Positions 1-15,215 of a DNA stretch of 64,000 nucleotides are shown here, one piece after another (the first letter of the stretch is position 1; every line of letters starts with the position of its first letter). Position numbers and translations under genes: made by a program. The stretch spans positions 1-64,000 of the forward strand of contig NZ_CAJHOB010000013.1 in assembly GCF_905120355.1 (NCBI RefSeq). The letters are read 5' to 3'. The notes under the pieces are model-generated. The model saw only the letters and a list, made by a program, of their open reading frames with translations, did not search any database and was not told where the DNA came from. Origin of the DNA: Azonexus hydrophilus. Lineage in GTDB: Bacteria > Pseudomonadota > Gammaproteobacteria > Burkholderiales > Rhodocyclaceae.

Positions 1-399
1 GTGGAAACGACGCTGGCGACGGGCAAAGCCGAACGCGAAGCGGCGGCGGTGATGGCCAAACGCTCGTTGAAACGGGGTTCTACCTTGGGTGCCGACAAGA
101 ATTACGACACCGCTGGTTTCGTCAAGGCAATGCGAGCGCAAGGCATCACCCCGCACGTTGCCCAAAAGACCCACGGGGCGATTGATGGACGCACGACGCG
201 CCATGCCGGTTACGGCGTCAGCTTGCGCGTGCGCAAACGAATTGAAGAAATCTTTGGTTGGGCGAAGACAGTCGCTGGACTTCGCAAGACCTGTTTTATC
301 GGATTGGCCAAGGTGAAGGCGCAAACGACTTTTACCCTGGCTGCTTACAACCTGACGCGAATGGCGACGATCTTTGGCTGGCGATTGAACACGGTGTAG
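1..399 (+). CDS. IS5-type transposase, C-terminal part (cut by window edge)
   Basis: The 132 visible residues are the C-terminal end of a DDE transposase; the N-terminus lies before the window, so position 1 is not a real start. ADKNYDT (residues 31-37) holds a catalytic Asp at 32. RVRKRIEEIFGWAKT (76-90) holds the catalytic Glu in the Y-R-E-K setting typical of IS5-type enzymes (Y71 precedes it). The protein ends normally with TAG at 397-399. The right end of the element probably lies within the next hundred bases, but with no second copy here its terminal repeat cannot be defined. Confidence 0.85.
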   Translation: METTLATGKAEREAAAVMAKRSLKRGSTLGADKNYDTAGFVKAMRAQGITPHVAQKTHGAIDGRTTRHAGYGVSLRVRKRIEEIFGWAKTVAGLRKTCFIGLAKVKAQTTFTLAAYNLTRMATIFGWRLNTV

Positions 400-575: not shown

Positions 576-974
576 ATGAATCGTGTTGAACCGGGTAACG
601 CCGAAAAAATTCTATCCCTGTGCGGGAACAAGGGGGCTGAACCATTAGAAACAATAGTCTATCGATTTGGTTCTGTAGAAAAAGTTGAAATTGAACTGGT
701 CGCTTCCGTTAAGAGTAAAGCCGGTATTGTCAGACAATCCGACGAGGCTTCTCATGCTGGCCTGATATCCATATATTTTTACAAAGGGCAGTATGCATAC
801 GAAGTCAGCGAAGGCTTGGGGATGACGACGGGGGTCCGCCTCAACGCCTTTTTCCAGAAAAAGAAAATCGTAGGTTACGAGTCAAATGACTATGACTCAG
901 AGTTGCTGAAAATCAACTTTGATCAGCCAATATCTCCAATATTCAAGCGGGTAAGCCCATTGCAAGCTTGGTAG
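576..974 (+). CDS. Hypothetical protein, 132 aa
   Basis: I do not recognise this protein. The ATG at 576 (MNRVEPGN) is preferred over the in-frame ATG at 501, because the 25 residues before it are Arg/Cys-rich and look like translated IS end. The product is soluble and mixed alpha/beta, with no signal peptide or membrane segment. A middle region (about residues 65-100) has alternating hydrophobic residues ending in YFYKGQYAYEV. It stands alone between an insertion sequence and a secretion operon and is AT-richer than its neighbours, which fits acquired DNA. An immunity-type protein is possible by size only. Confidence 0.5.
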   Translation: MNRVEPGNAEKILSLCGNKGAEPLETIVYRFGSVEKVEIELVASVKSKAGIVRQSDEASHAGLISIYFYKGQYAYEVSEGLGMTTGVRLNAFFQKKKIVGYESNDYDSELLKINFDQPISPIFKRVSPLQAW

Positions 975-1218
975 ATGCGGGCCGCGTGGTCCGGAATTAG
1001 GACCTAAGCTGGATTCTAATGTGAGTCTGGACGGCCTTTCTAGCCTGAGGGCGAGATTTTTCTCAGCAGATGTCACAGCGGGGTTCATCTGTCGATTTCT
1101 TGCTATGCAATCCAACTAGTGACCGAAGTATGCTGCTGGAGTATAGTGCTGGGCGCGTTGCGCCTCTGTGGTCCTGTTTGCCGTGGAGTCCCTGAAATAA
1201 ATCCTGTTACCTGACTCC

Positions 1219-2688
1219 ATGCCTGGTTTGTCCCGGTCATATTCTTCGCGGAAGTTTCCCTTGTTTCGATGTTTCTTTCCTCGTCCAGGCGCTGCCGGTT
1301 TCGGCTGGCGTTTTTCCGTCTTGATGCTGGCCCTTGGGCTGGCCGGCGCAGTGCAGGCACAGTCGCTTGCCGTCCTGCTCGAACGGGCGCGCACCGGCGA
1401 GCCGACCTATCTGGGGGCGAAGACCAATGTGCTGGCGGCCCAGGCGCGCAACAGCCAGGCCATCGGCGCGATGTTGCCGCAGGTCAGCGCAACGGCCAGC
1501 GCCAACGACAATGACCGCAATTACAAGACGCGCAATTCCAGAGTGCCGGAAGCGCGCGACCAGTACGACAGCTATTCGGCCCAGATCAACCTGACCCAGC
1601 CCCTGCTGCGTTACGCCAATATCGTCGGCTGGCGCCAGGCGCGCGCGGTGGTCGGGCAGGCCGAGCACCAGTTGGCCGGGGCCGAGCAGGAGTTGTTCGC
1701 CAAGCTGGTCGGCGCCTGGTTCGACCTGCTGGCGGCCCGCGATGCCGTGGCTTTTACCGGGCGCCAGGCCGACGCCTTGCAGCGCCAGTGGGAAATTGTC
1801 AGCCGGGGCGCCGAGTTGGGCGTTTACGGTCAGCCGCAGGTGGACGAGGCGCGCACCAAGCTCGATCAGGCCTTGTCGGACGCCGTGGTGGCGGAGACCG
1901 ACGTGCATTTGAAGCGAGCGGCGCTTGAACAACTGGTCGGCGATTTGCCGGAGCGCGAGTTGCCCTACATGCTGGGCGAGGCGGTATTGGCCTCGCCGAC
2001 CAGCGATTCGTTGGAAAAGTGGCTGGAAAATGTCGAAACGGGCAATCCCAATATCCTGGCGGCGACCCAGGCTTACGAAGCGGCCACGGCCGAGGTGCGC
2101 AAGCAGCGCGCCGGGCATTTCCCGACCCTCGACCTGGTCGCCAGCTATGGCAAGAACGGCCAGGCGGTCGGCGGTTTTCCCGGGCAGGCCGGCTACGACA
2201 TCACGCAGGGTACGCTCGGTCTGCAATTGAATGTGCCGCTGTTCGCCGGCGGGTCGCAGTCGGCCAAGGTGGACGAGGCGCTGGCGCAGAAGGAAAAGGC
2301 CCGGCTTGATCTGGAAGCCGCCCGCCGCACGGCGATTCTCAATACCAAGCAGGCCTGGTTCGGCTGGCATGGCGCCTTTGCCCGCACGCGGGCCGGCAGC
2401 CAGGCGGTCAAGGCGGCGCGTTCGGCGCTGGCCCAGGCCAGGGCCGGCCTGGAAAACGGTTTGAAGACCGAACTCGACGTGTTGCAGGCCGAGCAGCAAT
2501 TGCGGGCCGGACAGCGCGATTTCCGCAAGGGGCGTTATGACCAGGTGGTGGCGTTCGTGCGCCTGCTGGCGGCGAGCGGCCGGCTGACCGATGGCGACGT
2601 GGTGGCGCTCGACGGCCTGCTCGTCGAATCGCCGGAGGCTGCCGAACCGCCTGTCGATGCACGCATGATCAAGGTGTCCGGACGATGA
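1219..2688 (+). CDS. TolC-family outer-membrane efflux/secretion channel
   Basis: A 489-residue outer-membrane factor that should form the trimeric beta-barrel and periplasmic tunnel of a type I-like exporter. The N-terminus ends in a signal peptide (MLALGLAGAVQAQ, cleaved near residue 48). The mature part has two repeats rich in long Ala/Gln/Glu helices, as in the TolC duplication (for example AEHQLAGAEQELFAKLVGAW and ARAGLENGLKTELDVLQAEQ). The first Met at 1219 gives a long n-region; an alternative start is the ATG at 1324. Its stop overlaps the next gene's start as ATGA, so it heads the four-gene operon running to 8682. Confidence 0.88.
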   Translation: MPGLSRSYSSRKFPLFRCFFPRPGAAGFGWRFSVLMLALGLAGAVQAQSLAVLLERARTGEPTYLGAKTNVLAAQARNSQAIGAMLPQVSATASANDNDRNYKTRNSRVPEARDQYDSYSAQINLTQPLLRYANIVGWRQARAVVGQAEHQLAGAEQELFAKLVGAWFDLLAARDAVAFTGRQADALQRQWEIVSRGAELGVYGQPQVDEARTKLDQALSDAVVAETDVHLKRAALEQLVGDLPERELPYMLGEAVLASPTSDSLEKWLENVETGNPNILAATQAYEAATAEVRKQRAGHFPTLDLVASYGKNGQAVGGFPGQAGYDITQGTLGLQLNVPLFAGGSQSAKVDEALAQKEKARLDLEAARRTAILNTKQAWFGWHGAFARTRAGSQAVKAARSALAQARAGLENGLKTELDVLQAEQQLRAGQRDFRKGRYDQVVAFVRLLAASGRLTDGDVVALDGLLVESPEAAEPPVDARMIKVSGR

Positions 2689-4547
2689 GCGCGAACGGGA
2701 ATTTGGTCTCGCCAGAAAACAACGAGGGTGTGCCGCCCGAGCTGCTGGCCTGGGATGCCTTCGTTTCGGCCAAGACCGCGGAAGGGCGCTGCCATGCCTG
2801 GCTTGCCCTGGTCTGCGGAAAGGTTCGGGGCGCCCGGGCGGCGGCCGTGCTGATCGAGAACACCCTCGATCACACCTTCGTGCCGATGGCGGTCTGGCCC
2901 AAGGCGAGTCCGGACATGGGGCGCCTGGGGCCGGTCGTCGAGGCGACGCTGCGCGATCGGCGCGCTGTCATCAAGCCTGTGGCCGAATCGCCGGGTACGA
3001 CGCAAATCGCCTATCCGCTGATGCTCGACGACTACGTGGCGGGCGTCGTGGCGCTGGAAGCGGACTGCCCGGAAAACGAAGTCGGCGAAGTGCTGCGCGA
3101 AATCCACTGGGGTAGCGCCTGGCTCGCCAACCTGCTGGCCGGCCGCGAGTTGTCCGAGGCGGTTTCGGCGCGCGAGCGCGTCGGGTCGGTGCTCGAGACG
3201 ACGGCCGTGGCCTTGCGCCACGGCAAGTTGCGGCAGGCCCTGTTCGAGGTGGCCAATACCCTGCGCCAGCGTTTTTCCTGTACCCGTGTTGCCATCGGGC
3301 TGGTTTCGGCGGCCACGGTCAGGCTGATCACCCTGTCCGAGGCGGCGGTATTTGAAAAGCATGCCTTCCTGGTCAAGGCCTACGAACAGGCCATGGAAGA
3401 GGCGCATGACGAGGGTGGGGCGGTGCGCACGCCCGCCTTGGCAGCGGCGGATTCACCCAGCGGTGCGCGCGTCTGGCCCAAGCACGAGGCCCTGCGCGCG
3501 GTCTCCGGGGCTGGGGCGGCGCTTTCCTTTCCGCTGATGATGGGCGCGCAGGCCATCGGCGTGCTGACCCTGGAGCGCGAAACGGCCCTTTTCTCCGACG
3601 ACGATCTGGTCTGGCTCGATGCCTTTGGCGCGCTTGTCGCGCCGATCATCGAGCAACGCCAGGCGGCCGAGCGCGGCGCCTTCCGCCGTCTGGGCCGGGA
3701 TGCCCGGCAGGTTCTGGAAAAGATTTTCGGGCCGCGCCACCTGACCTGGAAGGCCGGGACGGCGGGCGTGCTGTTGGCCTGCGCCATCCTGGTCCTGGTG
3801 CCGGTCAGTTATCGCGTTTCGGCGCGGACGGTGATCGAGGGTGAGATCCAGCGTGTCGTCGCAGCTCCCTTCGAGGGCTTTGTCGGTGCCGCCTACGCGC
3901 GGGCCGGCGATACGGTCAAGGCCGGCCAGCCGCTGGCCCAGCTCGACGATCGCGAATTGCGCATCGAGGAGGCCAAGTGGTCGAGCGAGCGAGACCAGTA
4001 CGACAATCGCCTGCGCGAGGCGATGGCCAACCATGACCTGACCGCCATGCAGGTGGTGGGCGCGCAATTGCGCCAGTCGTCGGCGCAGCTTGCCCTGGTC
4101 ACCGAGAAAATCGCCCGGGCCCAACTGAGTGCGCCCTTCGACGGGATCGTGGTGTCCGGCGATCTCAGCCAGCAGGTCGGCGCGCCGGTCGAAACCGGCA
4201 AGAAGCTGTTCGAGGTCGCGCCCCTGCAAAGCTATCGCATCATCCTGCAGGTCGATGAGCGCGATATCCGCCACCTGCGCATGGGCCAGGACGGCCGCCT
4301 GGTGATGACCGGCATTGCCGGCGAGCCGATGGATTTCAAGGTGGCCAAGGTGACGCCCGTGGCGACGGCCCAGGACGGCCGGAATTTCTTCCGCGTCGAG
4401 GCGGCACTGGCCGAGGCTTCGCCGCGCCTGCGGCCGGGCATGGAAGGCATCGGCAAGGTCGAGGTGGGCGACCGCTCGCTGTGGTGGGTGCTGACCCACA
4501 GCTTCACCGACTGGCTGATCCTCTCGCTGTGGACCTGGCTACCCTGA
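2685..4547 (+). CDS. GAF-domain HlyD-type periplasmic adaptor
   Basis: A 620-residue inner-membrane protein. Residues 1 to about 360 are cytoplasmic and include a GAF-like sensor domain (about 175-330, including RFSCTRVAIGLVS and GAGAALSFPLMMGAQAIGVL). One membrane segment follows (about 363-383, AGVLLACAILVLVPVS). The rest is a membrane-fusion-protein module: a lipoyl-like half (FEGFVGAAYARAGDTVKAGQ), a helical hairpin, the second half (AQLSAPFDGIVVSGDLSQ) and a beta-barrel domain. Such adaptors normally join an inner-membrane transporter to TolC. A GAF sensor on the cytoplasmic side is unusual and suggests ligand-gated activity. It overlaps the TolC gene by 4 nt. Confidence 0.85.
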   Translation: MSANGNLVSPENNEGVPPELLAWDAFVSAKTAEGRCHAWLALVCGKVRGARAAAVLIENTLDHTFVPMAVWPKASPDMGRLGPVVEATLRDRRAVIKPVAESPGTTQIAYPLMLDDYVAGVVALEADCPENEVGEVLREIHWGSAWLANLLAGRELSEAVSARERVGSVLETTAVALRHGKLRQALFEVANTLRQRFSCTRVAIGLVSAATVRLITLSEAAVFEKHAFLVKAYEQAMEEAHDEGGAVRTPALAAADSPSGARVWPKHEALRAVSGAGAALSFPLMMGAQAIGVLTLERETALFSDDDLVWLDAFGALVAPIIEQRQAAERGAFRRLGRDARQVLEKIFGPRHLTWKAGTAGVLLACAILVLVPVSYRVSARTVIEGEIQRVVAAPFEGFVGAAYARAGDTVKAGQPLAQLDDRELRIEEAKWSSERDQYDNRLREAMANHDLTAMQVVGAQLRQSSAQLALVTEKIARAQLSAPFDGIVVSGDLSQQVGAPVETGKKLFEVAPLQSYRIILQVDERDIRHLRMGQDGRLVMTGIAGEPMDFKVAKVTPVATAQDGRNFFRVEAALAEASPRLRPGMEGIGKVEVGDRSLWWVLTHSFTDWLILSLWTWLP

Positions 4548-4553
4548 TCGCCT

Positions 4554-6701
4554 ATGACGCGCAGCCTGTTCAGTTCGTCCTGGCATAGCGTGGCCGACCT
4601 CCGGCCGCGCCTGGTGCCGCAGGCGCGCATTCATCGTCACGTCTATCGCGGCCAGGTCTGGCATGTCGTGCAGGACCAGACGGGCGGCCGCTACCATCGG
4701 CTGTCGCCGGCCGCCTACAACCTGTTGCTGGGCATGGACGGCACGCAGAGCGTGCAGCAGTTGTGGGAAAAGGCCAACCAGTCCGGCGATGGCGATGCCT
4801 GCACGCAGAACGAGATTGTCGATCTGCTGGTCCAGCTGCATGCCGCCGATCTCCTGCAGGCGGATACCAACCCGGATTCGGCGGCGCTGTTCGAGCGCTA
4901 TCGAAAAAAGCGCAGTGCAACGCTCAAGCAGTTCCTGCTCAATCCGATGAGCCTCAAGCTGCCGCTCATCGACCCGGACCCCTTCCTGGTGCGCTGGGCG
5001 CCGCTGCTGGCCTGGTGTTTCACGCGGGCCGGCGGTCTGCTCTGGCTGGCCGTCGTCCTGCCGGCGCTCGTGATGGCGGGCCAGCACTGGCCGGAACTCA
5101 CCCGCAACATGTCGGACCAGGTGCTCTCGTCGAGCAACCTGCTGGTCATGGCCTTCGTCTTCCCGATCGTCAAGCTGCTCCACGAACTGGGTCACGCCTT
5201 CGCCAGCCGGGTCTGGGGCGGGCCGGTGCACGAAATGGGCGTGATGTTCCTGGTCTTTGCCCCGGTGCCCTATGTCAATGCCTCGGCCTCGTCGGTATTC
5301 CCGTCGAAATGGCGGCGCGCCGTCGTCGCGGCGGCCGGCATGCTGGTCGAGCTTTTCCTCGCCGCGCTGGCGCTCTATGTCTGGCTGCTGGTCGAACCCG
5401 GCGTGGTGCGTGCGGTCGCCTACAACGTGATGGTGGTGGCCGGCGTCTCCACCCTGATCGTCAATGGCAACCCGCTGTTGCGCTACGACGGCTATTACAT
5501 CCTGACCGATCTCATCGAAATGCCGAATCTCGCCCAGCGCGGCCAGAAATACCTGGCCTACCTCTGGGACCGCTACGTCTTCGGCGCGCATGACGTGGAC
5601 GAACCCCAGGAAGGCACGGCGGAAAGACGCTGGTTGCTGGCCTATACGCCGCTGGCCTGGTGCTACCGCGTTTTCGTGACGGTCTCGATCATGCTCTTCG
5701 TGGCCGGGCAGTTTTTCATTTTCGGTGTGCTGATTGCACTCTGGGGACTGGTTTCGCTGATCGGCATGCCGATCTGGAAGGCCTACAAGCACGTTGTCCG
5801 CAGTCCTGGCCTGCAGCGCCACCGGGTGCGCGCCGCGCGGATTTCGCTGGGACTGGCCGCTGCCGTGCTGTTCCTGTTCTTCGTCGTGCCGCTGCCTTTG
5901 CACAGCCGTGCCGAAGGCGTCGTCTGGCTGCCCGATCAGGCCATCGTGCGCGCCGGCGGCAACGGCTTTTTCCGGCACTGGCTGATCGAGCCGGGCAGCC
6001 CGGTCAGCAAGGGCGAGGCGTTGTTCGAACTGGAAGACCAGTTGTTGAGCACCGAGCTCGAAGTGGCGCGGGCCAAAGTTGCCGAGGCCGAGGCGAAATA
6101 CCGCTCGGAACAGTTCGTGGATCAGGCCAAGGCGGCCTTGTCGGGGCGCCAGCTCGAACAGGAGGAAGCCGTGCTGGCCAAGCTCGAGGAAAGGGCCGGC
6201 AAGCTGGTCGCCTATGCCGAAACCGATGGCGTGCTGGCCGCTGCCGTGTCGCAGGACATGCCGGGACGCTACCTCAAGAAGGGTGAACTGGCCGGCTACG
6301 TGCTCGAAAGGAATTCGCTCATCGTGCGTGTGGTGGTGCCGCAGAGCAATATCGACCTGGTCCGTGCCTATTTCCGCTCGGCCGAACTGCGCCTGGCCGA
6401 CCGGGTTGGCGCCAGCCACTCGGCAACGCTGGTCCGCACGCCGGCCGGCGGGGTCGAGGAGTTGCCGACGCCGGCGCTCGGCGTGGCCGGGGGCGGGCAG
6501 ATTCCCACGGTGCCGAGCGATCAGAATGGGGTCAAGACCACGGAGCGGGTATTCCTGGTCGATCTGGCCTTGCCGGCCGATGTGCCTTCCACCGCTTTCG
6601 GCGAACGGGTCCATGTGCGTTTCGGGCACGGTTGGGAACCGCTCGCCTGGCAGGGTTTTCGTCGTCTCCGCCAATTGCTGTTGAGCCATTTCAATGTCTG
6701 A
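4554..6701 (+). CDS. PqqD-like / M50 zinc metalloprotease / HlyD fusion protein
   Basis: A 715-residue polytopic membrane protein in three parts. Residues about 15-105 resemble a PqqD-type peptide-binding domain (HVVQDQTGGRYHRLSPAAYN, then TQNEIVDLLVQLHAADLLQ). The middle is a site-2-protease-like M50 domain with HELGHAF near residue 211 as zinc ligands and catalytic Glu, and NGNPLLRYDGYYIL near residue 305 as the second ligand motif. After about residue 440 there is one more membrane segment and a HlyD-like lipoyl/hairpin/barrel part (LPDQAIVRAGGNGFFRHWLI, FELEDQLLSTELEVARAKVA). It could bind, cut and pass on a peptide or a leader. It begins 7 nt after the adaptor and overlaps the SecA-like gene by 8 nt. 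Confidence 0.85.
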   Translation: MTRSLFSSSWHSVADLRPRLVPQARIHRHVYRGQVWHVVQDQTGGRYHRLSPAAYNLLLGMDGTQSVQQLWEKANQSGDGDACTQNEIVDLLVQLHAADLLQADTNPDSAALFERYRKKRSATLKQFLLNPMSLKLPLIDPDPFLVRWAPLLAWCFTRAGGLLWLAVVLPALVMAGQHWPELTRNMSDQVLSSSNLLVMAFVFPIVKLLHELGHAFASRVWGGPVHEMGVMFLVFAPVPYVNASASSVFPSKWRRAVVAAAGMLVELFLAALALYVWLLVEPGVVRAVAYNVMVVAGVSTLIVNGNPLLRYDGYYILTDLIEMPNLAQRGQKYLAYLWDRYVFGAHDVDEPQEGTAERRWLLAYTPLAWCYRVFVTVSIMLFVAGQFFIFGVLIALWGLVSLIGMPIWKAYKHVVRSPGLQRHRVRAARISLGLAAAVLFLFFVVPLPLHSRAEGVVWLPDQAIVRAGGNGFFRHWLIEPGSPVSKGEALFELEDQLLSTELEVARAKVAEAEAKYRSEQFVDQAKAALSGRQLEQEEAVLAKLEERAGKLVAYAETDGVLAAAVSQDMPGRYLKKGELAGYVLERNSLIVRVVVPQSNIDLVRAYFRSAELRLADRVGASHSATLVRTPAGGVEELPTPALGVAGGGQIPTVPSDQNGVKTTERVFLVDLALPADVPSTAFGERVHVRFGHGWEPLAWQGFRRLRQLLLSHFNV

Positions 6702-8682
6702 CGCGCGTGCCCTGCTGATCGGTCGGGGTATCGAACTCGGCGACGGTGCCTACCTCGAACACGCCGACCAGCCCACGCATGCCGTCGAAGAGTGGCTGCG
6801 CGCACTGCTTGCCCGTCTGGCCGGCGGCACCGCCAAGCGCGACAGCAGTTTCGTGCGCCAGGTCAACGCCCTCGAGGAGGAGATCAAGGCGCTGGGCGAC
6901 GATGCCTTGCGCGCGGCAATGCGCGCAGTCACCGCGCAGATGCAGACGGCGGGCTTTCGCGAGGACTTGCTGGCGCGCGCCTTCGCCATCGTGCGCGAAG
7001 CATCGCGCCGAACCCTGGGCATGCGCCATCACGATGTCCAGTTGCTGGCCGGGCAGGCCTTGCTGCGCGGTCGTATCGCCGAGATGGCCACCGGCGAGGG
7101 CAAGACATTGGCAGCGACCCTGGGGGTATGCACGGCGGCGATGGCCGGTGCGGCGGTTCATGTCGTGACGGTCAATGATTACCTGGCCGAGCGCGATGCG
7201 GAGGACAACACCCCGCTGTTCGCATTCTTCGGCCTGAGCGTCGGCGTGGTCAAGCAGGACATGTCGATTGACGACCGGCGGTCGCTGTATGCGCGGGACG
7301 TCGTCTATGTCTCCAACAAGGAACTGACCTTCGACTACCTCAAGGACCGCATCGCCCTCGGCGCGACGATTGCCTCGCAACTCAAGCTGCGTCGCCTGAG
7401 CCGGGGACGCGGGACGGCCGACGGCATCCTGCGCGGCCTGCATGTGGCCATTGTCGACGAGGCCGACAGCGTGCTCATCGACGAGGCAAGAACGCCGCTG
7501 ATCATTTCGGAAACCCTGCCGGACGACCTGGGCGAAGAGATCTACCAGCAGGCCATCAGCGTCGCCGGACAACTGCAGCCCAGGCTCGATTATGTCCAGG
7601 GGCGGCAGCGCGATATTTGGCTCACGGCAGCCGGTGAGAGTACCGTGGCCGGGCTGGTCAAGGATTTCGGCGGCGTCTGGAAATCCCCACTGTGGCAGAA
7701 AGAGTTGATCGGCAAGGCGCTGTCGGCGCTGCACATGTTCCAGCGCGATCAGCATTACATCATCGTCGAAAACAAGGTCCAGATCGTCGATGAGTTCACC
7801 GGCCGGGTCATGCCCGACCGTACTTGGGAGCGCGGCCTGCACCAGATGATCGAGGCCAAGGAAAATTGCGAGATCACAGGGCAGCGTAGGACCCTGTCGC
7901 AAATCACCTACCAGCGGTTTTTCGGGCGTTATCTCCTGCTCGCCGGCATGACGGGAACGGCGGAGGAGGTCGGGCCGGAACTGAAACGTGTCTACGACCT
8001 CGACGTGACGCGCATTCCGACACACAAGCCGACGCGGCGCCTGCGTCTGCCGGATCAGCTTTTCCGGACATCGGACGAGCGCTGGCAGGCGGTCGCGGCG
8101 CGTGCCCAGTTAGTGGCCGAGGAAGGCCGGGCCGTGCTGGTCGGCACCCGCTCGGTCGAAGCTTCCGAAATCCTGAGTCAGTTGCTGGTCGCGCGCGGCG
8201 TCGCCCATACCGTTTTGAACGCCCGCCAGGACAAGGAAGAAGCGGATGCGGTCGGGCAGGCCGGCATGGCCGGCCGGATCACCGTGGCGACCAATATGGC
8301 GGGTCGCGGCACCGATATCAAGCTGGCCCCGGAAGTCGAGGAGCGCGGCGGCCTGCATGTGATCCTGACGGAATTCCACGAAAGCGCCCGGGTTGACCGG
8401 CAGTTGTTCGGGCGCTCGGCCCGTCAGGGCAATCCGGGTTCCGTCGAAGCCATCGTCAGCCTGGGCGACGAACTATTCCAGCGTTATACCCCGACCCTGG
8501 TCCGTCTCGGCCTGCCTTTCCTGCCCGGTGCCGAAACGCCCAATGCGCTACTGCTCAAAGGCCTGGTGCGCTATGCACAGAGCAAGGCCGAAAGGCAGAA
8601 CCGGCGCATTCGCCTCGATACCATTCGCCGCGACCGTCAGTGGCTGAAAGCCTTGGGCTTTGTTGGCGGCGAGCGTAAGTAG
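6694..8682 (+). CDS. SecA-like preprotein translocase ATPase, short form
   Basis: A 662-residue SecA paralogue. Visible motifs are Walker A in MATGEGKTLAATL (about residue 130-142), the DEAD-box-like VDEADSVLIDEARTPLIIS (about 255-273), GMTGTAEEVG (about 420), TNMAGRGTDIKL (about 531) and GRSARQGNPGS (about 570). It is well short of housekeeping SecA (about 850-900 residues) and lacks the C-terminal Cys-rich SecB/zinc tail. It is therefore probably a dedicated motor for this operon rather than the essential SecA. The ATG overlaps the end of the M50 gene (ATGTCTGA). The N-terminal 80 residues are not SecA-like and may bind a partner. Confidence 0.88.
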   Translation: MSDARALLIGRGIELGDGAYLEHADQPTHAVEEWLRALLARLAGGTAKRDSSFVRQVNALEEEIKALGDDALRAAMRAVTAQMQTAGFREDLLARAFAIVREASRRTLGMRHHDVQLLAGQALLRGRIAEMATGEGKTLAATLGVCTAAMAGAAVHVVTVNDYLAERDAEDNTPLFAFFGLSVGVVKQDMSIDDRRSLYARDVVYVSNKELTFDYLKDRIALGATIASQLKLRRLSRGRGTADGILRGLHVAIVDEADSVLIDEARTPLIISETLPDDLGEEIYQQAISVAGQLQPRLDYVQGRQRDIWLTAAGESTVAGLVKDFGGVWKSPLWQKELIGKALSALHMFQRDQHYIIVENKVQIVDEFTGRVMPDRTWERGLHQMIEAKENCEITGQRRTLSQITYQRFFGRYLLLAGMTGTAEEVGPELKRVYDLDVTRIPTHKPTRRLRLPDQLFRTSDERWQAVAARAQLVAEEGRAVLVGTRSVEASEILSQLLVARGVAHTVLNARQDKEEADAVGQAGMAGRITVATNMAGRGTDIKLAPEVEERGGLHVILTEFHESARVDRQLFGRSARQGNPGSVEAIVSLGDELFQRYTPTLVRLGLPFLPGAETPNALLLKGLVRYAQSKAERQNRRIRLDTIRRDRQWLKALGFVGGERK

Positions 8683-8779
8683 ACTGCCTTCCGCGGCTAC
8701 CTATTTGTTTCCTTGCGAACTGCAGAATGGCTCTACGGCTCCTGACCAAACGCCCATCAACCATACATTGTGGGGGGTA

Positions 8780-8857
8780 ATGTCAAACGAAGTAGGGAAG
8801 GGGACCAACCCCAATTTCCGCAGTACGGACACCGGCCTAGCGAATTTATTTGAATAG
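8780..8857 (+). CDS. Tiny ORF after the export operon (25 aa), possible gene stub or precursor
   Basis: ATG at 8780 follows a G-rich ribosome-binding stretch (TGGGGGGTA) and opens 25 codons, starting MSNEVGKGTNPNFRST and ending LANLFE, with TAG at 8855-8857. It lies 97 nt after the SecA-like gene on the same strand and runs 12 nt into the 3' end of the convergent WYL gene. It could be the first codons of a lost export substrate, a small peptide cargo or a chance ORF. Nothing in the sequence settles this. Confidence 0.25.
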   Translation: MSNEVGKGTNPNFRSTDTGLANLFE

Positions 8858-9664
8858 CAACGGAAGCAATTTTTCGGAATTCGCCACTTCTAGCTGAAAT
8901 TCTGGTGGCTCCTCATGCACAGGATCAATTGAGGCCTTAAGATCGAAAATCACATACTGAGCTAAGCAAGCGCGAATTGATAGAAAGCGATTTTTTTCCC
9001 CAGAAAAAAATTCATTTCGAACAACTTGTTGTTGATCAGGCGAAAGCTTGCGATGCGCTTTAAGTTCGAGCTCAACAAATGTCTCCCACCCCTTGTCCTT
9101 ATCAAGGTTGAGCAGAAATCGTTCAAGAGTTGATTCTGCCGAGTGAATTCGTCCCATAGTGAAATCACGAAAGTCCTGTCGTTTCATGCACCAGGCACGA
9201 ACATGCCATCGACGACCCACATGCACTATGGCATGAGGAAAAATAACCCGTTTCCCATACGCAGGATTTGTCATCGACGCATAGGCGATTTCAACCCCAG
9301 TTTTCCCTAGCACGGCCTTTCGAAGCGTTGCGAATATCTCTGGTCGAACTTCCGTCAGGTCGACGCGAGCATCCACAAGGCCGGGATTCCCACCTTCAGA
9401 GGCCATGGTGTGCAGAACGTATTCGTCCAGCGGCACTGAACACTCAAATTCACGCGGATTTGCAAGGCGGAGTACCTTGGCTCGGCCGTCTTCGGTGAGC
9501 TGATCGCCAAGCATTGCCCTGAAATCGGCGAGCAGCCGGCTGGCCTGCACGGGTTGCAAATTGAAGAGTTGTCGAACCCTTGCATTGCCGATCTCGCCCT
9601 CCCAGGAGAGAACGCCTTCCATGATTCTCAATCGTTGATCGCGAAGTGCTGGCCTATTTGACAT
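8846..9664 (-). CDS. WYL-domain transcriptional regulator
   Basis: A 272-residue cytoplasmic regulator. Residues 1-60 form a winged-helix-like DNA-binding part (RIMEGVLSWEGEIGNARVRQ, then QASRLLADFRAML). The region about 110-200 is WYL-like: GVEIAYASMTNP, FPHAIVHVGRRWHVRAWC and FRDFTMGRI match the usual beta-strand pattern with the R-H-V-R-A-W core. WYL proteins of this build (such as CapW and BrxR) often repress or control phage-defence operons. This one is divergent from the SMC-type operon, with only 82 bases between the start codons, so local control is likely. The ligand is unknown. Confidence 0.85.
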   Translation of the reverse strand: MSNRPALRDQRLRIMEGVLSWEGEIGNARVRQLFNLQPVQASRLLADFRAMLGDQLTEDGRAKVLRLANPREFECSVPLDEYVLHTMASEGGNPGLVDARVDLTEVRPEIFATLRKAVLGKTGVEIAYASMTNPAYGKRVIFPHAIVHVGRRWHVRAWCMKRQDFRDFTMGRIHSAESTLERFLLNLDKDKGWETFVELELKAHRKLSPDQQQVVRNEFFSGEKNRFLSIRACLAQYVIFDLKASIDPVHEEPPEFQLEVANSEKLLPLLFK

Positions 9665-9695
9665 ACTTAACCTGTTGAGTGTTTGTCATTTATCT

Positions 9696-9728
9696 TATAC
9701 GATAACATATCATTAACGATAACATCGT
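9696..9728. promoter_or_regulatory. Candidate WYL operator / shared promoter region
   Basis: The 82-base gap between the WYL gene and the SMC operon is very AT-rich. It contains ACGATAACAT twice as a direct repeat (9699-9708 and 9716-9725), 17 bases apart start to start. The position between divergent genes and the repeat suggest an operator for the WYL protein. The exact -10 and -35 elements are not certain. Confidence 0.5.
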
Positions 9729-9746
9729 ACCACCAAGAGGCCAGCT

Positions 9747-12700
9747 TTGGACTTCCGACTTACTCGCATCATCCTGATCGATTCCTACTGCCGCAGCCGC
9801 ATCGTTGAACTCGATGTCAGCGGGCACATCACCATCAATGGCGAGAACGGAGCCGGCAAGACCACCTTGTTACGGTTGCTGCCTATGTTCTTCGGCGAAA
9901 GCCCGTCTCGGATCATTCGCGGTGATGCAGTCACGGAGCGTTTCGGCAGCTACTATTTCCCGACTACTGGCTCCTACGTTATCTTCGAGTATCTGCGCCG
10001 GACACATAAGGCCATGGCAGTGATTCATCCAGATGGTCAAAGTGGCGAAGGCGTGGTTTATCGCCTGATCGATAGCGAGTACAAGCCGGCGTTGTTCAAG
10101 CACGAAGGCCAGGTTGTCCAGACCCGCGACCTCTATCGGCATCTCGACAAGCAGGGCGTTTTCGACTCGAAGCCGCTGACACTCCACGCCTATCGGCAGA
10201 TCATCCAGAACACCGCCGGCCGCGAGCACCGCAACTTGGCCGCCCGTTTTTCCTTCACGGGCGGCACCGGAAAACTGACCCATCTTGAGCGTGTGGTCAC
10301 CGGCATCCTTCAGCGTGCAACCACCTTCCACGACCTAAAGAAGATGATTGTGTCGTCCGTCCTGAACGGCGATGAAGTCTTTGCGCTCCGCACTGGCCGG
10401 CGCGACTTGCAGCACTGGCTCAATGAGCATGAGGCCCATCGGCAAGTCATGGAAAAAGCGCCGGTCATGGCTGATCTGGAGCAGGCCGATCAAGGCCGCC
10501 GGCTGATCAATCATGAATTTACGACCCTCCATGCGAAGTTCCAGTTGCTCCACGACTACTTTCAAGAACAGGTTGTAGAAGGTGAGAAAGCCGAGGGGCG
10601 GGCCAAGACTGACCTCACCGAGACCGAGGAAGAGTACAGAAAGCGCCTGCAAACCATTTCGGATGCAAAGATTGCAGCAGACTCCCGTGCCAAGCAGGCT
10701 CGTCAGGCCATTGAGCAACTGGACGCCCGGAAGCGCAAATACGAGACGGACAACATCGCCGGCAAGATAACGAAAGTCGATTCAATTGCTGCATGGGAAG
10801 CTGAGCTGAAGCCGCTCAAGCAGCAGTTGGATGACCTGGAGCGAGAGGTCAAATCGCTGACGGAGACGTTCACGGCAATGGAAACCGAGGCCAGAAATCT
10901 GGCCCGCGATCAGAAGTCCGAGCTGGACGACAAGAAGCCCGGCATCTACGAGTCTTTCGGAAAGCGCAAGGAAGCGCTCATTGAAGCTCACGGGAAAAAT
11001 CTCAAGGCGATCCGGTTGCGCCATGAGCCCGAACTCGAAGCGGCGAGCGCCAAAGTTACGGACTTCAAGACCCAAAAAGCCGGGCTGGAGGTCGAGGTCA
11101 AAAAAATCCAGGCTGATCCGGAAACCGTTCTGGCCTTGGAAATGGAACGGGAGAAGCAAACGAATGCCAACACCGATCTATCCGAACTTCACGACAAAAC
11201 CGATGGGCTTCAAAAAGCCCTTATCAAAGCCAAGCGGGAATACGACGATCTGGAATTGCAGGTCAATGAAGGTGAAAACGCCATCGAGAAGGCGGAGGTT
11301 GAACTTGAAGAACTTCTGGCGGCCGAATCCGCTGGGGAAGACACATTCCTTGGGTTCTTGCGCCGGAACAAGCCGAACTGGGCATCCGACATCGGACGCG
11401 TGGTTTCCCCTGAAACGCTGCTGAGGACTGATCTTGCTCCGGTTCTGGGTGATGGTCACGATCTGTACGGGGTGACTATCGATCTGGAGCAACTCAAGGC
11501 GGGCCGCTACTCCTCCGAAGAAGCAATCCAACAGGAAATCAAACTGGTTCGTGGCCGGCTGGAAAAGCGGAAAGGTGAGGTGGCAGAAGACAGGAAACTC
11601 CTGCTTAAGAAGAAGGAGGCAATGGATAAGGCCAAGACCGCCATTACCCTTCACGATGCCGCCATCGCTACCGCAAAGAACCGGAAGCTGTCTGCTGATA
11701 CGGCGGTAAAGACTGCACTTCTCCGAGTCGAGCAAAGCAAAAAGGCCGCAGCCACAAAAGCCCAAGGAGAGCTTGATATATGCGCCAAGAATCTTTCCTT
11801 GGCTGTTCAGGCGCTGGAATCACTCAAGAAGGATCACCGCAAAGAAATCGATGAGGTCGAGAGGCTGCACGCTGCAAACCTCGTTCAACTGAAGCCCGAA
11901 GAGACAAACGCGCTCAATGAGATCGATGCCCGCAAGAGGACTATCGATGCCGACTTGGCTGCCAAAGTCGCCCAGATCGCCAAGGATCGCGACGCCAGCT
12001 TGCACGACAAGGGTTATTCAACTGATGTCCTCAATGGACTCCGGACGCGCATTTTCAGACTGGATGGCCAGATTGCGGAAGCCAACAATCTACGCTCAGA
12101 GGTGATTCAGTATCGCGACTGGCTCGATACCTTGTGGTCTCAACGGCCAACACACATACAGGATCAGCAAACAGCAGATGCAGATTCCGCTCGCCTGAAG
12201 CGCGAGAACGAAGAGGTGCTCAGGGAGCGCAAGGAAGTTACCGACAAGAAGCAGACTGCCATCAAAGAGATCGGCGAGAAGATCGACAAGCACGAGAGAA
12301 AGCGCATTCTGGCGCTTGGCCAAACTCGCGATCTGGTTCATTGGCCACAGGATCAGGAAACCCTGAAGGCCGGTTTCGAGCAGATTCCCGATATCGATGC
12401 ACTCGTGGCCGAGCGCCGCCGCTTGATGGCAGACCTTGATAACCTCCGGGAAAAGATTCGCCAAGGGGTTGAAGATATCCGGCGGCAGATGATTTCGCTT
12501 GTCGGCACTGGTCCCGAGAAGTTCTATGCAAGCGCTGTGGCGACATCGGGTTATCCGCGCCCTGGGATGGAACACGAGTGGATTGAAGTATTCCGCACCT
12601 GGTTCCAGCATGAATACGAAACCAATCGGATAGACCTTCTTCAGCGCGGAAGAACACTTGCCCAGAACATCTCCTATTTCTGGAAAAGTCTTGATGACTT

Positions 12701-13364
12701 CAAGCGCAATGTCAGCACCTTTGCGACCGATCTTCGAGCCAATCTGGAGCAGGGCCAAATCTTCGACAGTATTGCTGACGTAAGCACAGAAATCCGGGCC
12801 GAGGTCGATACTCAGGGCTACTGGGAAGCGGTCGGCAACCTGCATCGTGAATATGAGACCTGGCACGCCAATGGCGATCCTGCATTGCCGCCGGCCAGCT
12901 TTGTTGACGCCGCCAAGCAAGTAGCGCTTGTCGTTGGTGAGGACAAGGGGTTGGTTGCTGACCCGGTTGACCTAATCAGCCTGAAGATCAGTGCCAACGT
13001 GAACAACCAAGGAGTGAAGACTGCAAGCAATGAGCACGAGCTGGCCAACATCAGTAGTAACGGCCTCTCCTACATCATTCTCTGCGTGATCCTGATTGGC
13101 TTCGTGAACCGGATTCGCCGTTCAGAGAACGTTGTCGTGCCTTTCGTCGTGGATGAACTGAAAGACTTGAGTTTCGCCAACGCCAAGACGCTGCTCGATC
13201 TTCTGACGCGGAACAATATCACCATGATTTCGGCTTTTCCGGATGTCGATCTTGACCTGGCCGAGCTGTTCGAGCGGAACTACAAGATTCTCCCGGGCCG
13301 CAAGGTCGGCTTGATCAACCTTGATGACGAAGTCGAGAACAACGAGGAGGAAGCGCATGTTTGA
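9747..13364 (+). CDS. jetC: SMC-like ATPase of a Wadjet/MksB-type system (JetC-like)
   Basis: A 1205-residue condensin-like ATPase. The head carries Walker A GENGAGKT (residues 32-39), then a very long Glu/Lys-rich coiled coil (about 265-950), with the second half-head at the C-terminus: a signature-like ISSNGLS (about residue 1100) and a Walker-B-like VVPFVVDELKDLS (about 1130). In Wadjet/MksBEFG systems the SMC forms a ring with kleisin and MukE-like subunits, extrudes DNA loops and lets a Toprim nuclease cut small circular DNA. The start is TTG, chosen because AAGAGG lies 6 bases upstream and the next Met is after the Walker motif. It overlaps the next gene by 8 nt. The Wadjet subtype is not assigned. 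Confidence 0.82.
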   Translation: MDFRLTRIILIDSYCRSRIVELDVSGHITINGENGAGKTTLLRLLPMFFGESPSRIIRGDAVTERFGSYYFPTTGSYVIFEYLRRTHKAMAVIHPDGQSGEGVVYRLIDSEYKPALFKHEGQVVQTRDLYRHLDKQGVFDSKPLTLHAYRQIIQNTAGREHRNLAARFSFTGGTGKLTHLERVVTGILQRATTFHDLKKMIVSSVLNGDEVFALRTGRRDLQHWLNEHEAHRQVMEKAPVMADLEQADQGRRLINHEFTTLHAKFQLLHDYFQEQVVEGEKAEGRAKTDLTETEEEYRKRLQTISDAKIAADSRAKQARQAIEQLDARKRKYETDNIAGKITKVDSIAAWEAELKPLKQQLDDLEREVKSLTETFTAMETEARNLARDQKSELDDKKPGIYESFGKRKEALIEAHGKNLKAIRLRHEPELEAASAKVTDFKTQKAGLEVEVKKIQADPETVLALEMEREKQTNANTDLSELHDKTDGLQKALIKAKREYDDLELQVNEGENAIEKAEVELEELLAAESAGEDTFLGFLRRNKPNWASDIGRVVSPETLLRTDLAPVLGDGHDLYGVTIDLEQLKAGRYSSEEAIQQEIKLVRGRLEKRKGEVAEDRKLLLKKKEAMDKAKTAITLHDAAIATAKNRKLSADTAVKTALLRVEQSKKAAATKAQGELDICAKNLSLAVQALESLKKDHRKEIDEVERLHAANLVQLKPEETNALNEIDARKRTIDADLAAKVAQIAKDRDASLHDKGYSTDVLNGLRTRIFRLDGQIAEANNLRSEVIQYRDWLDTLWSQRPTHIQDQQTADADSARLKRENEEVLRERKEVTDKKQTAIKEIGEKIDKHERKRILALGQTRDLVHWPQDQETLKAGFEQIPDIDALVAERRRLMADLDNLREKIRQGVEDIRRQMISLVGTGPEKFYASAVATSGYPRPGMEHEWIEVFRTWFQHEYETNRIDLLQRGRTLAQNISYFWKSLDDFKRNVSTFATDLRANLEQGQIFDSIADVSTEIRAEVDTQGYWEAVGNLHREYETWHANGDPALPPASFVDAAKQVALVVGEDKGLVADPVDLISLKISANVNNQGVKTASNEHELANISSNGLSYIILCVILIGFVNRIRRSENVVVPFVVDELKDLSFANAKTLLDLLTRNNITMISAFPDVDLDLAELFERNYKILPGRKVGLINLDDEVENNEEEAHV

Positions 13365-14001
13365 TCAGGTCACCATTCGCCTACTCGAAGGCAAGTTCAT
13401 CTGTGAATCGACAGCGCCGGAAGCCTTCCGCTGGCTCAACTCTGAGGAGTCACGCCAGGATGTTGCTGTTTACCTCGACCGGATCGGGCGTCGTCTGACC
13501 AAGACCCCGAATGGCGTTGCCTACTACGCTACCTGGAAGCGTGTCAGTTCCGATGAGCGCTCTGAGGTAAAGCGTGTCTTTGCCAACATCAAACAGATGA
13601 TCCGGCCGGTCATTCACTTCATCAATCTGTGCATGGAGGTGGAGAAGAAGGATTCCAGCCCGGCAGCGGGTGACCGCTTGGACTACGCGGTGCTTCTGAA
13701 AGCGGTCACTGAAAATCCACATCTCTTCGAGGTACTGCGTGAGTTCGCCACAATGGGCAAGGAATTCACCGTCACTGACGCTTCAGCGAAGGGGATGCTG
13801 GACAAAGTCATTAAGCAAATGGAAAGCTGGGGCTATCTGATTCTGGTCAATCGCGAGCAAGAGTCCTACCGCTTCACGGGGAAGATCGATTACTACTATC
13901 AAGTGATCGAATTCCTCATGGACCCGGCTCAGAACGAAGGCATTACCGATCCAACAGCTGAGGATCAGGAGGATGCGCCAGGGCAACGGGGGCTACTGTG
14001 A
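13357..14001 (+). CDS. jetB: MukE/MksE-like subunit (JetB-like)
   Basis: A 214-residue acidic, helical protein starting MFDQVTIRLLEGK at ATG 13357. The ATG overlaps the SMC stop, and an AGGAGG-like site lies within the SMC end. The middle and C-terminal parts look like tandem winged helices (YAVLLKAVTENPHLFEVLRE, and GMLDKVIKQMESWGYLILV followed by a beta hairpin YRFTGKIDYYY). Size, position between the SMC and the larger helical subunit, and translational coupling match the MukE/MksE/JetB role of bridging kleisin and DNA. It overlaps the next gene as GTGA. Confidence 0.7.
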   Translation: MFDQVTIRLLEGKFICESTAPEAFRWLNSEESRQDVAVYLDRIGRRLTKTPNGVAYYATWKRVSSDERSEVKRVFANIKQMIRPVIHFINLCMEVEKKDSSPAAGDRLDYAVLLKAVTENPHLFEVLREFATMGKEFTVTDASAKGMLDKVIKQMESWGYLILVNREQESYRFTGKIDYYYQVIEFLMDPAQNEGITDPTAEDQEDAPGQRGLL

Positions 14002-15215
14002 GCAAAGGTGATCCAGTACAGGAGTTGCTGCTAAAAATCAGCCTCAGTGCAAAAACTGTGGCCGAAACCTATTATCAAGGTAGGGTACACAAGACTGAAG
14101 AGAACTTCCGTGACATCGAACGTTTGCGGCATCTTCGTCTCCTGTCGCTAGATATTCGTGATGCCTTCCAGCTACGGGCCAGCTTCCGCCATTTCCTGAA
14201 TGCGGCGCTCAACACTGAGCGTCTGTTTTCGATGGGGGCCAACATCGGTGGCTATTTTCAGCGCCTGTCCGATCTGGTTGAGGGCCATTCTGTGGCCTAT
14301 CAGGAAGGGCGTGATGCCGATTGCGAGCGCTATGAAGTCGAAACACGCGAAGCCATCAGTGATATTGCCGATGCTATCGACGATGAATTGATCATCCTTC
14401 AGGCCCAGGTCTCCACCCGCTTTGCAGCCGTTTCGACCATCGCCGAGAAGAAGCGCCAGAACCTCCACTACCAGAAGCGAACTCAACAACTGGTCAATCT
14501 TCTGGAAAGCTTCCACTTCTCGGACATTGGTGAGCAGCTGGCCGGGCACGAGGAATTGGCACTGTCCTTCAAGTCACTGCTGGCAGACCGCATTCCTGCA
14601 TTCCGCGAGTCGCTATGGACCATCCTAGACACGCTGAACCAATACCTCTTCGAGTTCCGCAAGATCGAGGAACGCGCCAAACGGGTTCGCGCTTTTGCTC
14701 TGCACTTGAACCGCAATCCGGACTGGGAGCCGAAGGCATGGGATGAGGTTGCTGAACCGGCTGACTGGCTGCGTTGTGCGACCCCACTCGAAATCCAGAC
14801 CCACCCCGACGTATTGACACCGGAAGCAGAGGAATTTTTCTCCGAGATTGCTCGGTCGATTCCCGATACAGCGGGAGCCAAGAGCCGTACTGCCCGCCCG
14901 GCCGGCAATTTGGATGAGGAGCCTGGCAATCAGCAGATTCAGCCGCCAGAATCACCAATCCGCAAGGCGATCCGGATGTATTTCAAGGATGCGAAGCGCT
15001 CATCCGAGGGCATATCGGCCCGCGATTGGTGGGCAGCCAATCCCATCGTTCTCGGCAGCATCAAAGAGGAAATCTGGGTTCTCCGCGTCCTGGCTGAACA
15101 CGACAACAAGGGGAAGCTCGGCAAGTGGCAGTTGCGCATGAACTCTCGGCCACATCCAGACTTTGACGGAAACCTCCTCATCAAGGATGTCGTGATCTCC
15201 AAGAGGGCTGCCTGA
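13998..15215 (+). CDS. jetA: Kleisin-type MukF/MksF-like subunit (JetA-like)
   Basis: A 405-residue mostly helical protein starting at GTG 13998. Long heptad-like segments (about 60-240) are followed by a proline/acid linker (about 285-315: ARPAGNLDEEPGNQQIQPPE) and a C-terminal domain that looks like a winged helix (ISARDWWAANPIVLGSIKEE). Two globular ends joined by a flexible linker fit a kleisin that links the two SMC heads. Assignment rests on architecture and neighbours; the sequence itself is divergent. It overlaps both neighbours by 1-4 nt, so one transcript is expected. Confidence 0.65.
   Translation: MSKGDPVQELLLKISLSAKTVAETYYQGRVHKTEENFRDIERLRHLRLLSLDIRDAFQLRASFRHFLNAALNTERLFSMGANIGGYFQRLSDLVEGHSVAYQEGRDADCERYEVETREAISDIADAIDDELIILQAQVSTRFAAVSTIAEKKRQNLHYQKRTQQLVNLLESFHFSDIGEQLAGHEELALSFKSLLADRIPAFRESLWTILDTLNQYLFEFRKIEERAKRVRAFALHLNRNPDWEPKAWDEVAEPADWLRCATPLEIQTHPDVLTPEAEEFFSEIARSIPDTAGAKSRTARPAGNLDEEPGNQQIQPPESPIRKAIRMYFKDAKRSSEGISARDWWAANPIVLGSIKEEIWVLRVLAEHDNKGKLGKWQLRMNSRPHPDFDGNLLIKDVVISKRAA

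Follow-up and report, generated by a model that had tools for sequence, protein, structure and literature searches.

A candidate ABC-free, TolC-based exporter linked to giant LEPR-XLL proteins in Azonexus hydrophilus and its relatives

A stretch of 64,000 nucleotides from Azonexus hydrophilus (the window; contig NZ_CAJHOB010000013.1, here C13) carries four coupled genes, for a TolC-type outer-membrane channel, a GAF-HlyD adaptor, a PqqD-M50-HlyD protein (M50-HlyD) and a short SecA-like ATPase. What would such a set move, and with which motor? The first-pass annotation, made from the letters, described a chimeric two-membrane export or maturation system. All four open reading frames (ORFs) are present as it had them, all on the plus strand, and its statement that no ATP-binding cassette (ABC) or resistance-nodulation-division (RND) gene is present held both in family scans of the four genes and in the conserved run of their relatives. 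The check that it proposed, a search of homologue neighbourhoods for a shared cargo gene, gave a clear answer: giant LEPR-XLL proteins. Its two-membrane system is well supported. Based on comparison of genomes, the four genes and a small additional adaptor probably form an ABC-free, TolC-based exporter dedicated to one giant LEPR-XLL protein, and that the set would export the giant is the part held with the most confidence.

Recurrence of the set and its giant cargo

Relatives of the M50-HlyD protein were sought in 100 related genomes (source included), in plasmids and in 84,980 species genomes. The best 80 of at least 535 relatives from the species genomes are called the named loci, and their neighbourhoods were read by tblastn tables. 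A GAF-HlyD-type gene, M50-HlyD and a SecA-like gene occur together in 72 of the 80 named loci, a recurrence that exceeds chance, and in 63 of the 67 in which M50 has about 2 kb of sequence to either side. For two of the four exceptions among the 67, L073 and L108, a whole-genome search found the SecA-like gene elsewhere, in agreement with the rest; L119 is ambiguous, since that search found an intact SecA-like copy on another contig, and L118 stands against. Loci without a SecA-like gene had been considered as a contradiction to the system, an objection weakened by the two resolved cases. Genomes G107 and G133 have no SecA-like gene beside the M50 gene that was read and have one on another contig, and an Omnitrophota bin likewise carries its SecA-like gene on a separate contig. 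The set is found mostly in Pseudomonadota, and also in Desulfomicrobium, other delta-type bacteria, Rokubacteria and Nitrospiraceae. A search of viral contigs for M50 found nothing. The small third adaptor was seen in 57 of the 80 named loci, a count made with few references.

The cargo is a giant repeat protein, encoded outside the window, in which a basic N-terminus is followed by the motif LEPRxLLSxD (the NCBI LEPR-XLL domain, NF012209). The source genome has exactly one match to this domain at E<=0.001 (C20:39800-39862, 37.1 bits, cut-off 17), in a frame of 13,252 codons from stop to stop; the protein that starts at the likely ATG has 15 cysteines. Family scans of the giant in four pieces, covering nearly all residues, found CARDB, He_PIG, Big_9 and cadherin-like repeats and an M10 metalloprotease match, and found no match to RTX families. 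A gene for a 279-residue adaptor lies directly upstream. An excerpt of PMC10868602 describes a Vibrio protein of about 8,000 residues with LEPR-XLL and RTX/serralysin domains, and LEPR-XLL also occurs as a transcript label in an excerpt of PMC9611531.

The cargo and the third adaptor were outside the view of the first-pass annotation because C13 starts with window base 1, part-way through a transposase gene. Because the cargo and the four genes are on different contigs, their linkage in the source genome rests on a sibling genome, G052, whose four proteins are 91-94% identical to those of the window (M50 93%). In G052 a giant frame of 12,710 codons stops some 200 bp short of the TolC start; tolC (92% identical to that of the window) sits directly downstream of the giant gene and is followed by GAF-HlyD, M50 and SecA-like genes. 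The source giant is the ortholog of the G052 giant by its near-identical N-terminus, contig C20 ends about 370 bases past the giant, and the two contigs are oriented as the G052 order would require.

The neighbourhood was also read in seven plasmid relatives. Five of them (L035, L036, L037, L039 and L040) have an annotated gene of about 4,000-12,700 residues upstream of DUF3467 and the adaptors, with annotations as Ig-like, LamG-like or LEPR-XLL, while L034 and L038 have unannotated open frames there of at least 4,238 and at least 2,547 codons. Upstream sequence of at least 9 kb is available for 55 named loci; 40 of these have a further frame of at least 1,400 codons, a count that includes some minus-strand shadows, and 26 have a same-strand upstream frame that runs off the edge.

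The presence of M50-HlyD and of LEPR-XLL was then compared genome by genome. The M50-HlyD proteins form two clades, and in the phylum sample below clade I was defined by a profile threshold of E<1e-165, set after the list was seen, with three candidates scored per genome. Across the 100 relatives, LEPR-XLL is found in 9 genomes, clade-I M50 in 8 and both in 7 (Fisher p 1.8e-8). In a sample of 299 genomes of the phylum (source included) the corresponding numbers are 39, 35 and 30 (uncorrected Fisher p 3.7e-28), so that LEPR-XLL occurs in 30 of 35 genomes with clade-I M50 and in 9 of 264 without it. Genomes with both come from 12 of the 17 families holding clade I, by the listed family labels. 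Other M50-HlyD proteins (E<1e-70) are present in 8 of the 9 LEPR genomes without clade I, compared with 41 of 255 genomes with neither (p 6.6e-6). Through 50 of the 80 named loci, 48 genomes with clade-I M50 were reached, and LEPR-XLL was found in 42; in two of the remaining six a loose pattern gave the weak candidates LEARLLF (L100) and LESRQLF (L141) near the start of a long frame. The samples overlap in places, since G049:C49 seems to be the same contig as L109, an Azonexus bin, and G075:C27 the same as L128.

Two minor observations concern the composition of the loci. In six alphaproteobacterial plasmid relatives (L035-L040) a DUF3467 gene lies between the giant and GAF-HlyD, and a same-strand copy of this family was seen, with few references, in 18 of the 80 named loci; the family has no match in the source genome and was therefore rejected as a required part. 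Six loci (L101, L102, L112, L116, L140 and L143) have an extra 0.9 kb or so between the M50 and SecA-like genes.

Leader, protease-adaptor and SecA-like protein

The window M50-HlyD protein matches PqqD (18.9 bits), M50 (26.6 bits, cut-off 27.2) and HlyD_3 (20.6 bits), each slightly below the Pfam cut-off. In an alignment of 36 members, the window's included, M50 and HlyD_3 are each found in 32 and PqqD in 20 at E<=0.01, and NHLM HlyD matches weakly in 12. All 36 match NF041824, the daptide intramembrane metalloprotease model, which the window protein reaches with 142.5 bits, below the equivalog cut-off of 300. The M50 part thus appears related to the leader metalloproteases of ribosomally synthesized and post-translationally modified peptides (RiPPs), with the window's own score below the cut-off. 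The HExxH motif (210-214) and D312 are retained in all 36 members. In the AlphaFold model, with a predicted local distance difference test (pLDDT) score of 84.3, an N-terminal strand-and-helix region stands where PqqD matches, HExxH and the distal aspartate lie on long helices, and strands and a helical hairpin follow; the adaptor part matches MexA/MacA. The protein therefore has what marks an M50 intramembrane metalloprotease, namely HExxH and a distal aspartate in membrane helices. The domain order in the model suggests that the PqqD-like domain is cytosolic and the adaptor periplasmic.

Clade-I cargos mostly begin with LEPRx(L/M)(L/Y)(S/A)(A/G), and some with MEPR, IEPR or LESR. In both clades the stretch before the motif is basic, with a median net charge of +6, and a mean hydropathy above 1.6 over 12 residues was found in 2 of 49 frames. 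Because it is basic and rarely hydrophobic, the leader looks unlike a Sec signal peptide. Cargo starts were taken as the first in-frame Met, so some leaders may be too long. On balance it seems that the PqqD-M50 part would read this leader.

A second M50-HlyD system, of clade II, lies in the source genome at C4:70688-84291 (L204, L046) and consists of a cargo, two adaptors and an M50-HlyD protein about 27-28% identical to that of the window, with an open frame in the place of TolC and no SecA-like gene. Its cargo frame has 2,551 codons, starts with MQKKNRTSFRSSSRALALEPRLLFDGAGAV and has the motif LEPRLLFDGA; NF012209 at E<=0.001 gave no report for this LEPR start. In an Escherichia coli plasmid relative (L041, clade II) the cargo starts with LESRQLFDGAAL and TolC is annotated. 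The clade-II cargo motif LE(P/Q)Rxx(F/L)D(G/A) was found, close to the beginning of a long frame, in 7 of 12 stretches around clade-II M50 genes that were fetched irrespective of the motif, four of the other five (L211, L213, L215 and L218) being at a contig end, and in 5 of 6 stretches fetched for a LEPR hit. The two clades share a giant cargo with a LEPR-like N-terminus, adaptors, M50-HlyD and the lack of an ABC gene in the run. Clade II differs in its LEPRxLFDGA leader, in a C4 HlyD protein without a GAF match, in cargos of 1,927-4,504 codons and in having no SecA-like gene beside M50-HlyD in the loci read. We know of no published name for the clade-II system.

The SecA-like protein is a shortened SecA. 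A profile of 36 members covers residues 10-608 of Bacillus subtilis SecA and ends in the first scaffold helix, so that the DEAD motor, the preprotein cross-linking domain and that single helix are represented. SecA_DEAD, P-loop_SecA and SecA_PP_bind, the core of canonical SecA, are found in 36 of 36 members. Compared with seven canonical SecAs, residues 660-882 and 889-906 of the source genome's canonical SecA (also 512-521 and 529-547) have no counterpart; we take the first two stretches to be the wing, the two-helix finger, the linker and the zinc tail. SecA_SW was detected in 1 of the 36, marginally (E 0.0023), whereas the full-length SecA of the source genome, used as a control, has SecA_SW at 243.7 bits and SEC-C at 37.9 bits. 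The SecA-like protein is therefore without the wing, the scaffold with two-helix finger and the zinc tail of canonical SecA. In a tree, 20 SecA-like and 7 canonical sequences part at a 100/100 branch, SecA2 having been left out. The AlphaFold model (pLDDT 84.6) ends in one long helix, and its best fit by template modelling score (TM-score) among the listed structures is to SecY-engaged SecA (6itc 0.82, 5eul 0.81).

The Walker A motif TGEGK and D-E-x-D are invariant in the 36 aligned SecA-like members, which were chosen for good matches; L053, outside the 36, has TGAGK. At L118:11826-14078 and L119:12055-13845, degenerate proteins stand in the SecA position beside LEPR giants, with Walker A lost and the DEAD motif altered. 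The claim of the first-pass annotation that the system is driven by a dedicated SecA therefore stands in part: the ATPase motifs are kept in the aligned members, but the parts that work on SecYEG are lost, the protein is degenerate in two loci, and a sister clade does without an adjacent copy. Because it is degenerate in 2 of 67 loci and absent beside the sister-clade M50-HlyD, the SecA-like protein looks like a long-cargo module, with M50-HlyD, the other adaptors and TolC as the exporter core.

Cargo size points the same way. LEPR frames beside an intact SecA-like gene have a median of 9,914 codons (n=29, range 4,601-13,995), compared with 3,270 codons (n=16, range 1,927-4,610) for those without one. 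When L119 (7,731 codons; ambiguous) and three smaller frames with a SecA-like gene are put back in, p is about 5e-7, and among the hand-picked rows more than 5,000 codons are reached by 28 of 32 frames with a SecA-like gene and 1 of 17 without. Clade and cargo size are confounded, because clade II makes up 13 of the 16 rows without SecA-like; the other three, of clade I (4,054, 3,014 and 4,610 codons), go in the same direction, but intact SecA-like copies lie elsewhere in the G075 genome, and for L039 no SecA-like gene was found in a search that covered the plasmid, not the chromosome.

The size rows were hand-picked for adjacency. In 30 of the 42 LEPR genomes the frame was marked adjacent by coordinates, with contig identity unchecked, and 20 of these entered the 29 SecA-like-positive rows, 15 of them with a long plus-strand frame at that locus as well; the source, G052, G038, G087:C14, G075:C27 and four annotated plasmids supply the remaining nine. 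L118 was placed in the group without SecA-like, while L119, L080, L094 and L099 entered only the extended test. Left out were L073, L076, L078, L082, L083, L084, L096 and L098, because the SecA-like gene lies elsewhere or the contigs are short. Four of the 13 clade-II sizes come from stretches that had been selected by their LEPR hit (L219-L222).

Proposed mechanism, rival explanations and known systems

The mechanism proposed for the set starts in the cytosol. The cargo would open with a basic leader that has no hydrophobic core of the Sec type and continue with LEPRxLLSxD. This leader would be bound there by the PqqD-like domain of M50-HlyD and probably cut by the M50 site, either at the membrane or inside it. 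One conduit from the cytosol to the outside, with no ABC or RND protein, would be built from TolC and the HlyD domains of three proteins (M50-HlyD, GAF-HlyD and the small adaptor), and the GAF domain may gate the complex through a small ligand. The SecA-like ATPase would clamp the chain and push it or block its backsliding, and would be needed above about 5,000 residues. For the SecA-like protein as an ATP-driven feeder the chances seem even. A fuller version is put forward tentatively: M50-HlyD would define a previously undescribed, two-clade secretion system that reads the LEPR leader and is itself the inner-membrane part of a pump-free TolC conduit, in which the clade-I SecA core would push chains of about 0.7-1.4 MDa across both membranes.

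Several points weigh against export by this set. All of the evidence is genomic, and the source giant and the four-gene run sit on different contigs with a transposase at the break. A nearby TolC gene was seen in no more than 11 of the 80 named loci, searched with few references. There was no LEPR match in 5 of the 35 clade-I genomes of the phylum sample and in 6 of the 48 reached through the named loci; one of the 39 LEPR genomes, G356, has neither M50 clade; and the clade-II stretch L217 has room for a cargo, yet no motif. The Fisher tests ignore shared ancestry, the clade threshold is post hoc and the samples overlap. Small LEPR frames also occur beside intact SecA-like genes (L080 1,968, L099 3,643, L094 4,443 and G075:C27 4,601 codons), those of L099 and L094 lying on the opposite strand. 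The SecA-position protein is degenerate in 2 of the 67 eligible loci, L118 and L119; in the L118 genome a whole-genome search found canonical SecA as the only other SecA, and clade II, with no SecA-like gene alongside, has no evident source of energy. The energy step is the weakest link of the mechanism, because clade II has no SecA-like protein encoded beside it, that of L118 is degenerate and the known stroke parts of SecA are missing. The SecA-like protein may be a clamp or ratchet rather than a pump, or SecYEG may contribute after all.

The rival that survives best, although we consider it unlikely, is that the giant crosses the inner membrane via SecYEG, with the short SecA as a cytosolic holdase or targeting helper and with TolC and the adaptors doing the outer-membrane step. 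In its favour, the source genome encodes a single SecY and a single canonical SecA, SecY-engaged SecA is, among the listed structures, the closest match of the SecA-like model by TM-score, and a non-motor role would suit the degenerate protein of L118. However, a hydrophobic core before LEPR is rare (the 2 of 49 frames above), the source genome has no second SecY, and the SecA-like protein is without the scaffold, finger and wing parts by which SecA works on SecYEG. TolC-adaptor conduits usually work without a periplasmic intermediate.

It is improbable that the set is a maturation or surface-anchoring device, in which M50 and PqqD would process a giant exported otherwise while the severed leader or some small product would leave through the adaptors and TolC. 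M50-PqqD does resemble RiPP leader peptidases, but no RiPP precursor or modifying enzyme is annotated in the conserved run of the plasmid loci, a reading of annotated genes and not of small ORFs, and the several adaptor genes per giant cargo and the size trend of the SecA-like gene fit giant transport better. Type I secretion with an ABC transporter encoded elsewhere in the genome is the least probable, hardly to be expected: TolC and HlyD-type adaptors are present and LapA-like giant adhesins travel by type I secretion, but no ABC exporter is found in the conserved run of the annotated loci, ABC genes farther off falling outside that run. The RTX domains of the Vibrio LEPR-XLL giant in the excerpt of PMC10868602 would suit that route, but the source giant has no RTX family match.

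The proposed exporter was also compared with known systems. With type I secretion it shares TolC, HlyD-type adaptors, very large repeat adhesins and the linkage of cargo and exporter. It differs from type I secretion in its M50 protease-adaptor fusion, its N-terminal LEPR leader and its SecA-derived ATPase, and in having no ABC ATPase/permease among the four genes or in the conserved run of the annotated loci, the rest of the genome not having been searched for ABC exporters. Tripartite drug pumps would have an RND or ABC pump, and none is found among the four genes or in the conserved run. Accessory Sec (SecA2/SecY2) also has a second SecA-family ATPase beside the canonical one, linked to large surface proteins; here the wing, finger and tail are lost, the host bears TolC, and no dedicated SecY2 was found, the source genome having one SecY. 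Four SecA2 models score the SecA-like protein at 390-518 bits, below their cut-offs of 725-1100. RiPP export and leader processing (daptide M50, PqqD binders, NHLM HlyD) have in common with the set a PqqD-like domain and an NF041824-related M50, but here the cargo has thousands of residues and is not a small peptide, and the window protein scores below the equivalog cut-off. The view that the set is new rests on its falling outside all four of these kinds of known system and on a limited literature search. In the excerpts seen of Creative Commons-licensed full-text literature no exporter is assigned to LEPR-XLL; subscription journals and preprints were outside this search, and a description may exist.

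The LEPR-XLL tag has an NCBIfam model, and in the literature covered here the export route of the 5,000-14,000-residue proteins that carry it had no candidate. A candidate exporter, signal, protease and motor can now be named for these giants, and a SecA core without the two-helix finger would be a natural case in which to ask what a SecA motor requires for moving protein.

The four-gene run and its flanks

The features are listed in Table 1. Two neighbouring pairs of the run overlap (TolC/GAF-HlyD and M50/SecA-like), and GAF-HlyD and M50 are separated by a 6-base gap. By hydropathy, TolC has a signal-like hydrophobic N-terminal stretch at residue 34, and GAF-HlyD has a single hydrophobic stretch near residue 357, followed by its adaptor domain. 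Promoter-like sites on both strands of 900-9000 number 4, compared with 0.9 expected by shuffle, which is weak evidence.

Table 1. Positions of the features, in window coordinates except where contig C20 is named
Feature	Position	Strand	Evidence or remark
DDE transposase, 3' end	1-399	+	DDE_Tnp_1; contig C13 starts at window base 1
Promoter-like site 5' of tolC	1119-1147	+	Within the G052-conserved stretch 1117-1290; weak
TolC-type outer-membrane channel	1219-2688	+	TIGR01844 type_I_sec_TolC, 244.6 bits, above cut-off
GAF-HlyD	2685-4547	+	Pfam GAF, HlyD_D23 and HlyD_3, all above cut-off
PqqD-M50-HlyD	4554-6701	+	Leader-binding-like domain, intramembrane metalloprotease, adaptor domain
SecA-like ATPase, 662 aa	6694-8682	+	SecA_DEAD 334.7 bits, P-loop_SecA, SecA_PP_bind
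Giant LEPR-XLL protein, 13,219 residues	C20:40027-368	-	NF012209 match

Between the transposase and tolC, an ORF at 501-974 (157 aa) had no match in Pfam and NCBIfam scans. The longest listed ORF of the window has 1,205 residues. Downstream of the run, 8846-16120 holds a WYL gene on the minus strand, then MukB/JetC-like (DUF3584, 1205 aa), MksE-like, 405-aa and DUF7281 genes. These form a Mks/Wadjet-like condensin operon, to which PADLOC gave weak matches (JetC3 15.5 bits, JetB1 17.2 bits).

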